Below are positions 58 through 3,724 of a DNA stretch of 5,760 nucleotides, piece by piece; the stretch's first letter is position 1, and every line of letters begins with the position of its first letter. The position numbers were made by a program, and so were the translations under genes. Source of the stretch: Vicinamibacteria bacterium (GTDB taxonomy: Bacteria > Acidobacteriota > Vicinamibacteria > Vicinamibacterales > UBA2999); NCBI GenBank assembly GCA_025938035.1, contig JAICQE010000216.1, forward strand, positions 1 through 5,760, written 5' to 3'. Below the pieces are notes generated by a model, which searched no databases, was not told the origin of the DNA, and saw nothing but the letters and a program-made list of their open reading frames with translations.

Positions 58-1491
58 CTACCCGCCTCTAATTGCCACCCCGCGCGCGGGGGTGCCCACG
101 GCGGCCGCCCCGCCGCCGCCGTGGAGGTCGTGGCTCCAGCGGACCTTGCCGGTCTGATATTCGATCGCGCGAAGCACGCCGCGGCCGTGCACGGTATAGT
201 CGGCGCCCGCCCACCCGTGCGCACCGTGCTCCGGCTTGAAAAAGTAGATGCCGTACGCGTCATGCGCGCTGACGATCAGCAGTCCCGTTGCCGGATCGAA
301 CGCCGGTGAACGGTAGTTCGTGCCGCCGGCCTCGTCCGGAGCCACCAGCCGGCCATCGCGCGCCGGTTCCTTGCCAGGATCGGGAACCGGCCGGCCTTCG
401 GCGTCGACGCCCTTCGCCCAGTTGACCGCCGCAAACGGCGTCGTCAACAGGTTCTGTCCGGTCGTCCGGTCGAGCACGAAGTAGTAGCCGTTGCGTGACG
501 CCTGCAGCAGCAGCTTACGGCGCGTGCCGCCGAAGTCCGCGTCGACAAGCACCGGCACTTCGGCCGCGTCCCAGTCGTGCGTGTCGTGCGGCACCGCCTG
601 GAAGCCCCACTTCTGCTCACCGGTGTCGGGGTTGAGCGCGACGATGCTGCCGGTCCATTTGTTGTCGCCCGGACGCACCGGTCCGTTCAGCACTGGAGTG
701 GGATTCCCGGTACCGACGTAATACAGGTTCAGTTCCGGATCGTAGGTCCCGGTCATCCACATCTGCCCACCAGTGGCGCCACCGCTGATCGAACCGGGCG
801 TGCCCGGCGGCGGCGTGCTGTAGTAGGTCCACTGCGGCTTGCCGCTTTCAGCGTCGAACGACTTCAGGATGCCCGGCAGATTGTCGAAGTCTCCGGAGAC
901 GCCGACGATGACGTGATTGCGGATGACCATCGGCGCGTTGGTGCACCAGTAGCCGCGCCGCCAGTCGGCGATCTCGACGTTCCACCGGACGGTCCCGTTA
1001 CGCGCGTCGAGCGCGAGCAGCCGCGCGTCGCGGGTGGTCAGATACACGAGGTCGCCGCGGACGGCGACGCCGCGGTGGCCGATGTTGAACGCCTGGCCTG
1101 GCGGGTAGGTATAGCGCCAGATCTGACGTCCGGAGCGCGCGTCGATCGCCCACAGATTGTCGACCGTGGTGACGTAGATGATTCCGTTGACGAGAATGGG
1201 CGTCGCTTTGATCGACTGACCCTGATTGGTCTGAAATGCCCACGCGAGCGTCATCTGGCTCACGTTCGCCGGCGTGATCTGCGTCAAACGGCTATGGTGC
1301 TGTCCCGAGTAGTCGCCGTGGTAGGTGGGCCAGCTGTCGGGCGTCGGCTTCAGCAGGAGAGATGGGTCCACGGCTTGAGCGGACGCCATCGGCGAAGTCA
1401 AAGTCAAAAGGCAAAAGGCAAAAGGCAAAAGAAAAGGACCCAAGAAGGTCTTTTGACCTTTGCCTTTTGACTTTTGCCTTTCGTCGTCCAT
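58..1491 (-). CDS. Exported PQQ-type (quinoprotein-like) beta-propeller dehydrogenase, C-terminus apparently truncated
   Basis: Predicted 477-residue secreted protein of the PQQ-dependent alcohol/glucose dehydrogenase propeller family, expected to act in the periplasm. Residues 1-40 look like a signal peptide: a basic stretch at 5-14, a hydrophobic core at 15-31, and a likely cut after ASAQA (36-40). The mature part has repeated W-motif blade signatures (DARSGRQIW, DARNGTVRW, NPDTGEQKW, YQTGKVRW) and the family block YDPELNLYYVGTGNP (250-264), RPGDNKW (273-279) and PHDTHDWD (301-308). N263 and D276 match the metal-ligand Asn and catalytic Asp of methanol dehydrogenase-type enzymes. The adjacent Cys pair is absent (AFNIGHRG, 134-141). 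The start at 1491 is chosen because it lies one base after the cytochrome stop (TGAAATG), implying translational coupling; an in-frame ATG at 1554 would lie inside the cytochrome gene. After HDLHGGGG the protein ends in unrelated residues, about one blade short of its relatives. It may belong to the 'acido-empty-quinoprotein' type known from Acidobacteria (from memory, unverified). Confidence 0.88.
   Translation of the reverse strand: MDDERQKSKGKGQKTFLGPFLLPFAFCLLTLTSPMASAQAVDPSLLLKPTPDSWPTYHGDYSGQHHSRLTQITPANVSQMTLAWAFQTNQGQSIKATPILVNGIIYVTTVDNLWAIDARSGRQIWRYTYPPGQAFNIGHRGVAVRGDLVYLTTRDARLLALDARNGTVRWNVEIADWRRGYWCTNAPMVIRNHVIVGVSGDFDNLPGILKSFDAESGKPQWTYYSTPPPGTPGSISGGATGGQMWMTGTYDPELNLYYVGTGNPTPVLNGPVRPGDNKWTGSIVALNPDTGEQKWGFQAVPHDTHDWDAAEVPVLVDADFGGTRRKLLLQASRNGYYFVLDRTTGQNLLTTPFAAVNWAKGVDAEGRPVPDPGKEPARDGRLVAPDEAGGTNYRSPAFDPATGLLIVSAHDAYGIYFFKPEHGAHGWAGADYTVHGRGVLRAIEYQTGKVRWSHDLHGGGGAAAVGTPARGVAIRGG
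78..91. repeat. GC-only palindrome near the 3' end of the propeller gene
   Basis: CCCCGCGCGCGGGG is a perfect 14-base palindrome. With one extra G and one mismatch it extends outward to about 74-97 (GCCACCCC against a near-complement). It falls exactly where the propeller protein stops resembling its family, about 18 bases before the stop codon. No T-run follows on the minus strand, so I do not call it a terminator. It may mark a rearrangement or repeat junction. Confidence 0.6.
1396..1482. repeat. Heptad-based imperfect inverted repeat inside the quinoprotein signal-peptide coding region
   Basis: On the plus strand the left arm (about 1397-1431) has three exact tandem copies of AAAAGGC (1406-1426) plus a partial fourth, preceded by AAGTC. 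The right arm (about 1449-1482) is the reverse complement of variants of the same heptad (AAAGGC, AAAAGTC, AAAAGGC, AAAGGTC, AAAAG). The arms pair imperfectly over roughly 30 bases around a centre at about 1432-1448. The A/G-versus-T/C strand bias is unlike the surrounding GC-rich coding sequence. The element sits wholly inside the reading frame of the propeller gene, encoding its residues 4-32. Similar AAAAGGC-type arrays are, from memory, common between genes in Vicinamibacteria-like genomes. I see no transposase and no terminator-type T-run. Confidence 0.85.
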
Positions 1492-1492
1492 T

Positions 1493-2344
1493 TCAGCGCA
1501 GCGTCTGCAAGTACGCGAGAACATTGTGCATATCCGCATCGGTGTACTTTCCAAGCTGGTCTACGTGCGCCGCGCGCGGGTCGTTGACGGTGAATCGAAC
1601 CTGCTTCGCCGCCCATGATCGGTACCAGCCCGATGCATCGGTCAGCGCAATAGTGAATTCGTCGCGATACGCGAGCCGGCCGGTGATGACCTGTCCGGAG
1701 GGAAGCGTGACGGTCACTTGGGCTGCGCGCTTCGGGTCGCGGATCTGGCCCCCCGGATAAAGCATCCGCTGCAGCAGCGGGAGCCCCTGCAGCCGCGTGG
1801 CGATGCCGGCGAGATCCCCCGTCGCCGAGTGGCAGCGCGAACACGCGTTGTCGAAGTAGCGCTTGCCGGCGTCGGCGTTCCCCGTCTGCAGATCGGCGAG
1901 GTCAACGCTCCTGCGTCCGCCGACGGCCGATTCGGCCTGCGTCTTCTGGTCGTGGATGAATGCGACGATGGCCGTCATGTCCGCGTCGGACAGCGCGAAC
2001 CCCGGCATGTTCTGCCGTCCGCTCCTCACGACCGGGGCAATCCGATCGCCGCGCACGTCCGCAGCCACGAGCTCGGAGCGGGTCAGATCGGGTCCGCCCT
2101 CGCCCCCGCCCGCGTCGCGTCCGTGGCAGAAGCCGCACTGTGCGGCGAAGCGGACACGGCCGGCCTCGACCTGCTCCGGCGCGTACTGCTGCGGCGTGGC
2201 AGTCTGCGGCGGACGCTGCGACGCCGGACTCCCCTGCCCGCGGCCCTGCGGAGCGGCGGGCGCGGCGCCGCCGGCGCGTCCGCGCTGCGCATCCACAACC
2301 GCGGCCGCGTACACCAACAGCGCGCAGACGACGAGAACTCGCAT
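1493..2344 (-). CDS. Exported di-haem cytochrome c, second domain carrying an inserted beta-rich segment
   Basis: Predicted 283-residue periplasmic electron-transfer protein. Residues 1-19 form a signal peptide (hydrophobic VLVVCALLVYAAAVV, cut near VDA-Q), followed by a Gly/Pro/Gln-rich linker to about residue 50. Domain 1 has the haem-binding CGFCH (70-74), a PDLTRS loop, the likely axial Met113 in QNMPGF, and a C-terminal helix ending AFIHDQK. Domain 2 begins GNADAGKRYFDNACSRCH, with haem motif CSRCH at 168-172. It is then interrupted at about 207-255 by a beta-rich segment (VTVTLPSGQVITGRL, DEFTIALTD) before a last helix, YTDADMHNVLAYLQTL. No MP-type axial Met is visible after that insert; His260 or another residue would have to serve. 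The start at 2344 puts the ATG directly before the signal peptide, although no Shine-Dalgarno is visible and a hairpin ends eight bases upstream. An in-frame ATG at 2428 would add a repeat-encoded extension ahead of the signal peptide. The gene is first in an operon with the propeller gene and is its plausible electron acceptor. Confidence 0.9.
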   Translation of the reverse strand: MRVLVVCALLVYAAAVVDAQRGRAGGAAPAAPQGRGQGSPASQRPPQTATPQQYAPEQVEAGRVRFAAQCGFCHGRDAGGGEGGPDLTRSELVAADVRGDRIAPVVRSGRQNMPGFALSDADMTAIVAFIHDQKTQAESAVGGRRSVDLADLQTGNADAGKRYFDNACSRCHSATGDLAGIATRLQGLPLLQRMLYPGGQIRDPKRAAQVTVTLPSGQVITGRLAYRDEFTIALTDASGWYRSWAAKQVRFTVNDPRAAHVDQLGKYTDADMHNVLAYLQTLR

Positions 2345-2352
2345 CGGGGTGG

Positions 2353-2398
2353 GGCGAGCCTTGTCAGGCTCGCCAACGCGGACGTGACAACGTCCGCG
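2353..2398. repeat. Pair of adjacent perfect hairpins with complementary loops
   Basis: Hairpin 1 (2353-2374) has a perfect 9-base stem, GGCGAGCCT/AGGCTCGCC, and loop TGTC. Hairpin 2 (2377-2398) has a perfect 9-base stem, CGCGGACGT/ACGTCCGCG, and loop GACA. Only two bases separate them. The centres TTGTCA (2361-2366) and TGACAA (2385-2390) are exact reverse complements, so the two loops could pair. The unit lies just upstream of the cytochrome start codon and would be in that gene's mRNA leader. It resembles REP-type paired palindromes; the family assignment is inference. Confidence 0.8.
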
Positions 2399-2438
2399 CC
2401 ATGATCTGGCTGGTTTACCGAACAGCATGTGCGGACGA

Positions 2439-2466
2439 GTATTATCGGGTCTCGAATCCAGGTCAA
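2439..2466. promoter_or_regulatory. Candidate divergent promoter core
   Basis: This is the A/T-richest short patch in the divergent intergenic region. On the plus strand TATTAT (2440-2445) is a 5-of-6 match to a -10 box, but no good -35 box lies 16-18 bases upstream. On the minus strand GATAAT (2446-2441) is a 5-of-6 match, with TTGACC (2466-2461) as a 5-of-6 -35 box, though the 14-base spacer is short. Either or both operons could start here. The call rests on motif resemblance only. Confidence 0.25.
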
Positions 2467-2565
2467 TCGAACGGTTCGAACGACTCGAACGACTCGAACG
2501 ACTCGAACGATTCGAACGATTCGAACGATTCGAACGATTCGAACGATTCGAACGATTCGAACGGG
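2467..2565. repeat. Tandem 9-base minisatellite, 11 units
   Basis: Eleven contiguous 9-base units start at 2467 and recur every nine bases. Unit 1 is TCGAACGGT, units 2-4 are TCGAACGAC, units 5-10 are TCGAACGAT, and unit 11 is TCGAACGGG. Identical variants are clustered, as expected from slippage or local duplication. Because nine is a multiple of three and the unit lacks stops, reading frames stay open through it on both strands, giving artefactual Arg-Thr-Ile or Asn-Arg-Ser runs that are not protein. Junctions TTCGAA are palindromic. The last unit supplies the first three Gs of the next gene's Shine-Dalgarno. Confidence 0.95.
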
Positions 2566-2568
2566 AGG
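2563..2568 (+). promoter_or_regulatory. Shine-Dalgarno sequence for the oxidoreductase gene
   Basis: GGGAGG lies four bases before the GTG codon at 2573. This decides the start: the upstream in-frame ATG at 2429 would translate the tandem repeat, and the downstream ATG at 2588 would remove the first strand of the Rossmann fold. Its first three bases are the end of the last 9-base repeat unit. Confidence 0.75.
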
Positions 2569-2572
2569 TTAC

Positions 2573-3724
2573 GTGAAACGGATCGGGATGGGCCTCGTCG
2601 GCGCCGGGTTCGTCGGCCCGCATCACATCGACGCCGTTCGACGTCTCGGCTTCGTCGATATCGTCGCCGTCGCCGGCAGCAGCGACGCGTCAGGTCAGCA
2701 GAAGGCGCAGACGCTCGGCGCACGGAAGGGATACGGCAGTTATCAGGCGCTGATTGACGATCCGGACGTGCAGGTCGTCCACAACGCCACGCCCAACTAC
2801 TTGCACTACGAGGTGACGTCCGCGGCGCTGGCGAAGGGCAAACATGTCGTCTCCGACAAGCCGCTGGCCATGACCGCCGCGCAGTCACAGAAGCTTGTCG
2901 ACGAGGCACGCCGCGCCGGCGTCGTCACCGCGGTCACCTTCAACTACCGCGGCAACCCGCTCGTTCAGCACGCACGGCAGGCGATCGCGAACGGCGACAT
3001 CGGCACGCCGCGATTCCTGCACGGCTACTACATACAGGACTGGCTGCTGAACGAGACCGACTACTCGTGGCGGCTCGATCCGGCCAAAGGCGGCGCGTCT
3101 TCCGCGCTGGGCGACATCGGCTCGCACTGGTGCGACCTCGCCCAGCACATGAGCGGCCTGACGATCACGCACGTGCTCGGCGACATCACGACCACGCTGC
3201 CGAAGCGGAAAAAGCCGCGCGGCTCGCGTGAGGCGTTCGCGGCTGCCGGCGGCGAGGACACCGACATCGTCGATATCACCGTCGAGGATCTCGCATCGGT
3301 GCTGGTGCGATTCGACAACGGCGCGAAAGGAACGTTCTCGGTCGGTCAGGTGTGCCCCGGACACAAGAACGACCTCGTGCTGGAGATTTGCGGATCGAAA
3401 TCCTCGGTCAAGTGGCGGCAGGAACACCAGAATGAGCTCTGGTTCGGCCATCGCGATCGCGCGAACGAGATCCTGCAGAAGGATCCCTCGCTCATCGTCG
3501 ATCAGGCGAAGCCGTACGCGCATCTTCCCGGCGGTCATCAGGAAGCGTGGGCCGATGCGTTCTGCAACCTGATGCGCGACATCTACGGCGCCATCGCGGC
3601 CGGAAGGCCCTATCGTCCGCTCCCCCCGACCGTCGCCACGTTCGAGGACGGCTATCGGGCCAACCGGATCGTCGAAGCCATCCTCGAGAGCGCCAGGCAC
3701 GGCGGCGTGTGGACGAACGTATGA
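2573..3724 (+). CDS. Gfo/Idh/MocA family NAD(P)-dependent oxidoreductase
   Basis: Predicted 383-residue cytoplasmic oxidoreductase, a normal length for the family. The N-terminal Rossmann domain starts with the dinucleotide-binding GLVGAGFVG (7-15), followed by NATPNYLH (71-78) and SDKPLAM (94-100), a variant of the usual EKP motif in which Lys97 is the expected catalytic or nicotinamide-contacting residue. The C-terminal alpha/beta domain has [18 protein letters not shown] (173-190), with Asp181 and His185 in the positions of the family's DxGxH catalytic motif. Family members oxidise or reduce sugars, inositols, keto-glycosides or amino sugars; the substrate cannot be read here. The GTG start ([15 protein letters not shown]) is supported by the Shine-Dalgarno and by complete retention of the first beta strand. 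It is the first gene of a two-gene operon and overlaps the next by ATGA, a pairing with TIM-barrel isomerases often seen in sugar catabolic clusters. I see no signal peptide or Tat motif, so I infer a cytoplasmic location. Confidence 0.92.

Follow-up and report, generated by a model that had tools for sequence, protein, structure and literature searches.

A heptanucleotide inverted array read as a predicted Sec signal peptide in an Acidobacteriota quinoprotein-like gene, and its recurrence over other genes

Introduction

Signal peptides turn over fast. The origin of new ones is an open question. One survey of Enterobacterales describes entire signal peptides that appear or vanish between orthologues by insertion, transposable elements having been sought as the cause and none found according to the accessible part of that report, in the main text of which the word "repeat" occurs 0 times (PMC5952966). 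The precedent for repeat-derived predicted signal peptides is a MITE of Yersinia, RU-2/YPAL, which, in the accessible parts of the reports, forms part of the predicted signal peptide of YPO1552, a second locus, YE2643 with RU-1f, being also said to give a predicted signal peptide (Delihas, 2007; PMC2759123; PMC2229807). Besides, Rickettsia palindromic elements are palindromic repeats read in frame within protein genes; these are described as inserted within proteins and tolerated, and not, in the portion of the source at hand, as export signals (PMC2229807). Repeats of seven nucleotides reportedly outnumber every other class of long repeats in most genomes; among them, the TAACTGA repeats of Beggiatoaceae form tandem arrays located mainly between genes and ahead of starts, in an account whose main text has 0 occurrences of "signal peptide" (PMC4679880). 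In the literature searched, no account of heptad arrays as signal peptides was found.

The locus presented here resembles the Yersinia MITE as accessibly described, in that an intergenic repeat fused in frame forms part of a predicted signal peptide, the relatives of YPO1552 having unrelated signal peptides. While the Yersinia case concerns a 168-bp MITE with one locus worked out, the heptad arrays are tandem, neutral to frame and strand, and found over many conserved families. Unlike AAAAGGC/GCCTTTT, TAACTGA, as reported, has stops in one orientation. As regards MITEs and palindromic mobile elements, for which terminal inverted repeats, a constant consensus and a target duplication would be expected, the heptad elements are seen to vary in length, copy number and number of arms. 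The reading preferred here, to which a probability of about three in four is given, is that a heptad inverted array has come to lie over the 5' end of an exported-protein gene, is translated as a Sec signal peptide and was kept after replacement. A 7-nt repeat spelling a basic and then a hydrophobic peptide in every frame and on both strands would be a concrete source of signal peptides, including those of conserved envelope proteins such as LptE; for annotators, it is also a warning that, in MAGs rich in repeats, starts and signal peptides may be mistaken for junk or intergenic DNA.

An inverted heptad array at the start of a quinoprotein-like gene

The window, i.e. the whole stretch of 5,760 nt analysed from a Vicinamibacteria bacterium, carries on its minus strand a quinoprotein-like beta-propeller ORF at 61..1491 (477 residues from ATG 1491, stop codon at 58-60), with a match to PF01011 at E 9.8e-71. 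The closest NCBIfam model, TIGR04528 (acido-empty-quinoprotein group A), gives 616.2 bits, under its cut-off of 650, which leaves the protein outside the family as defined, and is covered over positions 1-437 of 493, the C-terminal part being missing. On the same strand, an upstream cytochrome c ORF, recognised by profile search, extends over 1493..2626 as its longest open frame, the true start probably lying further in, and its TGA stands 1 nt ahead of ATG 1491. Between the cytochrome c gene and an oxidoreductase gene, a 9-nt tandem array of TCGAACGAT is present in 10.8 copies (2467-2563); three consecutive units of it were encountered in none of the other 400 loci, both strands being scanned.

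Residues 5-31 of this PQQ-type propeller protein are the in-frame reading of an inverted array, the 7-nt unit of which is AAAAGGC/GCCTTTT. The preliminary description had placed this in-frame repeat at 1396-1482; the in-frame reading stands, the arms really ending at 1400 and 1481. The repeat search of the window delimits two arms of 33 nt, at 1400-1432 and 1449-1481, which are 88% complementary and separated by a 16-nt spacer, and TRF finds period 7 in both, with 4.6 copies each, as expected of a heptanucleotide simple sequence repeat. Read on the minus strand, the purine-rich arm (1449..1481) encodes the basic stretch RQKSKGKGQK, the spacer (1433..1448) about TFLGP and the pyrimidine-rich GCCTTTT array (1400..1432) the hydrophobic stretch FLLPFAFCLL(TL), followed at 1372..1395 by SPMASAQA, a candidate c-region with an AxA-type cleavage site according to the alignment and the rule given below (cut after ASA). 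From ATG 1491, the reading is thus MDDERQKSKGKGQKTFLGPFLLPFAFCLLTLTSPMASAQA, then the conserved mature domain. The inverted-repeat score reaches 21 in the 200 nt ahead of the mature domain, whereas the highest value among 200 dinucleotide shuffles is 12, and, as RNA, the array folds at -44.7 kcal/mol (z -7.0; equalled by 0 of 200 shuffles). In the frame that opens with ATG 1491, this hairpin begins as early as nucleotide 9, so close to the start that initiation could be impeded. At gathering thresholds, Rfam gave 0 matches in the window.

Signal peptides were called throughout with a rule of our own, from which export function is predicted: a 10-residue core free of DEKRHNQ and averaging a KD of 1.5 or more, preceded by K/R and followed by an AxA-type site or a lipobox. 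The N-terminus of the window protein scores 4.43. RQKSKGKGQK brings the positive charge of a Sec SPI n-region, although MDDE comes first, the uncharged core has a mean KD of 2.63 over 10 residues, and MASAQA provides the AxA-type site ahead of VDPSLLLKP. By the same rule, no second signal peptide occurs between the array and the mature domain of the window protein, and the next Met downstream would yield MASAQA. The array is thus predicted to form the basic n-region and the hydrophobic core of a Sec signal peptide, in agreement with the roles initially proposed for the two arms. While this layout holds, the start at 1491 that came with it is less certain, since another in-frame ATG at 1522..1524, still inside the 3'-terminal part of the cytochrome c ORF, reads MFSRTCRRCAEMDDERQ (MFSRTCRRCAE...), much like the start listed for many homologues (M..RTCRRFA...). 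Whichever of the two starts is used, the array makes up the n- and h-regions.

Homologues of the window gene and its shortened C-terminus

Among the best 120 of 7614 homologues, 104 are positive by the signal-peptide rule vs. 1 of 333 internal Met windows. The comparison of orthologues called for at the outset gives a two-sided picture, the mature part being conserved across 12 aligned homologues and the N-termini varying from relative to relative. Judged by eye on the protein sequence only, those of P0001 (the closest homologue), P0002, P0005, P0006, P0041 and P0045 look repeat-built; for one homologous locus, L074, the DNA itself shows a 34-nt inverted repeat of another unit, translated RGTRRTRRTLFGFLLCVLCVLRG. 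For the 50 testable of 80 quinoprotein loci, the inverted-repeat score exceeds all 60 shuffles in the signal-peptide region of 4, and in the mature control of 0; over a shorter stretch, with tandem or inverted repeats counted, 2/50 stand against 2/50, so that the quinoprotein gene is not generally repeat-rich at this position. Of note, L019, titled Bordetella parapertussis (MAG), carries a quinoprotein gene like those of Acidobacteria records and is perhaps a mislabelled bin.

The other end of the protein is short, by about 61 residues relative to P0001. From the motif YHGDYSG to the C-terminus, 421 residues are present in the window vs. 444-498 in the 118 measured of 120 listed homologues, all 118 of which extend 23-77 residues further. 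Over 58..92 (minus strand), alignment, tblastn and length comparison agree that the protein diverges from the aligned homologues and stops early, and tblastn with the C-terminus of P0001 found no clear continuation of the window gene. This early stop is either a real truncation or an assembly join; truncated at its 3' end, the gene may be in decay. The pseudogene envisaged in the preliminary description is rather unlikely, about 410 residues from YHGDYSG being open and conserved (88% identity to P0001) with a GC3 of 0.81 for the gene, and the C-terminus being nonetheless short.

Recurrence of heptad elements over other genes

Among 193 genomes from the class, 13 contain the pattern GGCAAAAGGCAAAAG, with at most 43 matches per genome, overlaps counted, and 8 contain the reversed control pattern; among 396 from the phylum, 9 contain (GGCAAAA)3 and 1 its reversed control. 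From 22 Acidobacteriota genomes and the window, 154 elements were assembled, 88 in a first set that includes the window and 66 in a second, separate set, drawn in each genome from the listed places rather than from every match. As detection merges matches within 60 nt (first set) or 90 nt (second set), some physical elements are split, e.g. at L128. Gene calls are our own; gene models were retrained for the second set, the first models failing on lower-GC genomes, with the signal-peptide rule unchanged. Retraining brought that set from 25 element-gene pairs, 7 of them with an open frame and a sense pyrimidine arm and 2 with a signal peptide, to 45, 20 and 11, respectively.

Both sets together comprise 110 pairs with a coding onset within 150 nt; 44 of these have an open frame and the pyrimidine arm in sense direction. 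A signal-peptide core inside the element, with no other signal peptide, is called in 19 of these 44 vs. 0 of 40 pairs with the purine arm last. Once the window itself and L088 are dropped, the latter as an implausible signal peptide on what we take to be an acyl-CoA dehydrogenase-like product, 17 genes remain in 7 genomes (L095, L104, L130, L206, L134, L145, L323, L362, L252, L350, two genes at L341, L343, L345, L346, L347 and L349), L095 and L362 needing GTG or TTG starts. Three further cases, L128, L137 and L328, are clear by eye and lie outside the fixed rule; L210, devoid of a usual start codon, was left out of the counts. The predicted use of the array as a signal peptide in the window gene thus recurs in 17 further genes by one rule and 3 by eye, mostly unrelated to one another. 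According to Pfam, they include LptE (L323), SCO1/SenC (L341), cytochrome c lipoproteins (L104, L341), solute-binding proteins (L252, L346), TPM (L362), PA14 (L343), PD40 alone (L095) or with gamma-glutamyltranspeptidase (L134), TPR (L206, and L130 below the cut-off only), fn3 (L347), glyoxalase (L345), ThuA (L128) and FG-GAP/ASPIC (L137). L350 and L145 have no Pfam family; scanned with NCBIfam only, L349 has no match and L328 a weak one below the cut-off. Glyoxalase-fold proteins, as at L345, are often cytosolic.

Over genes of cytosolic type, the called start comes after the array; those recognised behind elements are presumably EF-Ts, NuoD, NusA, ValRS, FabZ and TsaD. Three exported genes (L133, L144, L215) retain their own signal peptide downstream of the element. 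Two arrangements can be mentioned besides. At L343:3007-5202, the signal region runs from the GCCTTTT array into a second heptad array, CAACTTT, translated FNFQLSTFNF; at L141:3708-7915 (genome G117), three of four heptad elements lie within spans of called genes, near a gene that we take to be DNA-polymerase-like.

Frame, strand and polarity of the repeat unit

The preliminary description supposed that the arms must fall in the right frame, which proves unnecessary: whatever the frame, AAAAGGC gives KRQKAKG and GCCTTTT gives AFCLLPF, and the unit is stop-free in all six. Seven being no multiple of three, and neither strand containing a stop, frame and copy number hardly matter. Such units are scarce, as 21 of 2344 heptad rotation classes, i.e. 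21 of the 1184 in which neither strand has a stop, combine a core KD of at least 2, none of DEKRHNQ, and a partner net charge of at least +2. All two-armed elements are purine-first, namely 25 of 88 in a looser scan (17 of 88 in a strict one) and 13 of 66 in the strict scan of the second set, so that either strand reads basic, then hydrophobic; in the strict scan of the 88, 37 are single pyrimidine arms and 34 single purine arms.

Whether stretches coding for signal peptides are richer in repeats was approached by successive exploratory tests, the first of them negative, and not by one planned test. A metagene of repeated 14-mers gave no signal-peptide enrichment (2/216 vs. 3/216; 0 vs. 0 of 134), their coverage being spread across the coding sequence. 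At looser thresholds for tandem and inverted repeats, lags of 3n included (cut 11), signal-peptide-coding stretches gave 12/317 and 7/225 vs. 3/317 and 2/225 for the mature part of the same genes, with 3/375 and 1/166 for the N-termini and 4/375 and 1/166 for the inner parts of other genes. Because amino-acid repeats could mimic a DNA repeat, lags of 3n were then dropped in favour of non-3n tandem repeats and strong inverted repeats, which were detected in 6 of 542 signal-peptide-coding stretches vs. 4 of 2707 stretches from other parts of genes (p 0.0024, Fisher test) among L001-L080 and contigs of G115 and G117, the contigs being fetched irrespective of elements from two genomes chosen as repeat-rich. 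Four of the five tandem matches among these six have lag 7; L009 lies before the start codon, L003 is the GC-rich n-region of a quinoprotein and L074 is another of the six. Other heptads, CTTTGTT, TTGGTTA and TCTCCTG, are likewise found in signal regions. CTTTGTT, encountered in a signal peptide within contigs not chosen for elements, is one of the 21 qualifying units, to which neither TTGGTTA nor a CGTTTTT-like unit belongs.

Probable replacement and retention in the ThuA and cytochrome c families

For ThuA (L128), 116 of 120 listed homologues are positive by the rule; near homologues keep a decayed repeat-like signal peptide (P0121, MQKAKRKLRFLLLGIFVSCLLPFALQAQ; P0128, P0140, P0195), distant ones have ordinary signal peptides (MKRALLVVLLA...), and no repeat is apparent by eye at L237 (83%), the closest of the other loci with a nucleotide sequence. 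At two further ThuA loci, L238 and L246, the hydrophobic core consists of a 9-nt GGGCTGGTG array whose copy number is not the same in the two genomes, hence possibly length-variable signal peptides. For the cytochrome c lipoprotein (L104), 97 of 120 listed homologues are positive, and CLLP appears within the first 60 residues of 31 of these 120 vs. beyond residue 60 in 0 of 120. L372 and L371 both read AFCLL, yet all five codons differ synonymously, as would be expected if the peptide were under selection, or had arisen by convergence. Within this family, the core contains TCTCCTG heptads at L392 and a 14-nt period at L385, and a scored repeat lies just ahead of the core at L393 (8 nt) and L398 (7 nt). 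By shuffle test, the signal-peptide region is repetitive at 5 of 30 cytochrome c lipoprotein loci and 3 of 9 ThuA loci (9 of 15 being placeable) vs. 0 of 30 and 0 of 9 for mature controls; these sets include the element-chosen query loci L371 and L236, without which the counts are 4/29 and 2/8.

As homologues of these two genes bear ordinary or decayed repeat-like signal peptides at the same place, an older signal was probably replaced by the repeat. The general route to new export signals put forward in the preliminary description is supported by the recurrence in two separate element sets; as to creation from nothing, it is not favoured, the repeat having probably overwritten a pre-existing signal peptide and been kept, rather than export having been gained de novo.

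Alternative explanations

Several explanations compete with an array translated as a signal peptide and kept. The repeat could be intergenic or leader DNA only, translation beginning downstream and the in-frame peptide never being made, and the many elements just upstream of genes recognised as cytosolic, as well as the signal peptides kept after the element at L133, L144 and L215, are what would then be expected; still, the window gene and 17 others are left, by the rule, without another signal peptide after the element, and a start at the next Met of the window would leave MASAQA in a family where most listed homologues are signal-peptide-positive, which makes this explanation very improbable. 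Scarcely better placed is a two-way intrinsic terminator with accidental coding use: purine-first polarity and T-rich arms look terminator-like and one weak match occurs at 1437-1450 (0.4 expected), to be set against the single-armed majority of the strict scan (37 and 34 of 88) and the number of elements inside coding frames. That the window gene is a decaying pseudogene on which a repeat merely landed fits the short C-terminus and the missed TIGR04528 cut-off; it appears unlikely, though not outlandish, given the conserved open stretch, its identity to P0001 and the GC3 reported above, and given that most other genes with such signal peptides match Pfam domains.

The explanation closest to the preferred one holds that signal-peptide regions are weakly constrained and repeats merely tolerated, with no special fitness for the role; it overlaps with the preferred reading and differs from it on selection only. 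The low frequency of repeat signal peptides per gene (6/542), the occurrence of several repeat families and the finding of TTGGTTA and CGTTTTT in the same contigs, both absent from the list of 21, speak for it, whereas the heptad belongs to the 21 of 2344 classes with hydrophobic and basic stop-free strands, as does CTTTGTT; on balance, tolerance is doubtful while deserving to be taken seriously. Under the preferred reading of a translated and retained array, a 7-nt tandem repeat, possibly arisen by slippage, with a purine arm then its reverse complement, would land over the 5' end of an exported-protein gene, the purine arm giving Lys/Arg/Gln/Gly and the pyrimidine arm Leu/Phe/Ala/Cys/Pro, while the host gene would contribute the AxA or lipobox cleavage site. 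In some Acidobacteriota, such arrays are mostly intergenic. Where the gene concerned encodes a cytosolic protein, they stay upstream of the start; where it encodes an exported one, they could overwrite the old signal peptide, serve in its place and persist, a retention that we infer to be due to selection.

Purine arms as possible ribosome-binding sequences

The purine arm ends 0-10 nt ahead of the coding onset in 15 of 55 pairs vs. 4 of 55 for the pyrimidine arm (p 0.010), which tentatively suggests a second role as a Shine-Dalgarno-like sequence. A broader proposal, the odds of which are put somewhat short of even, would make heptad inverted arrays ready-made start-and-export cassettes, with the purine arm as both RBS and n-region and the pyrimidine arm as core, in any frame and on either strand; such cassettes would repeatedly overwrite the signal peptides of Acidobacteriota, even that of LptE, and then be refined by selection until the repeat is invisible, a share of present signal peptides being repeat-descended. 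Purine heptad arms in Shine-Dalgarno position are seen at L128:4029-4051, L122, L129, L205, L225 and others and, at L128, the ATG itself lies inside the array.
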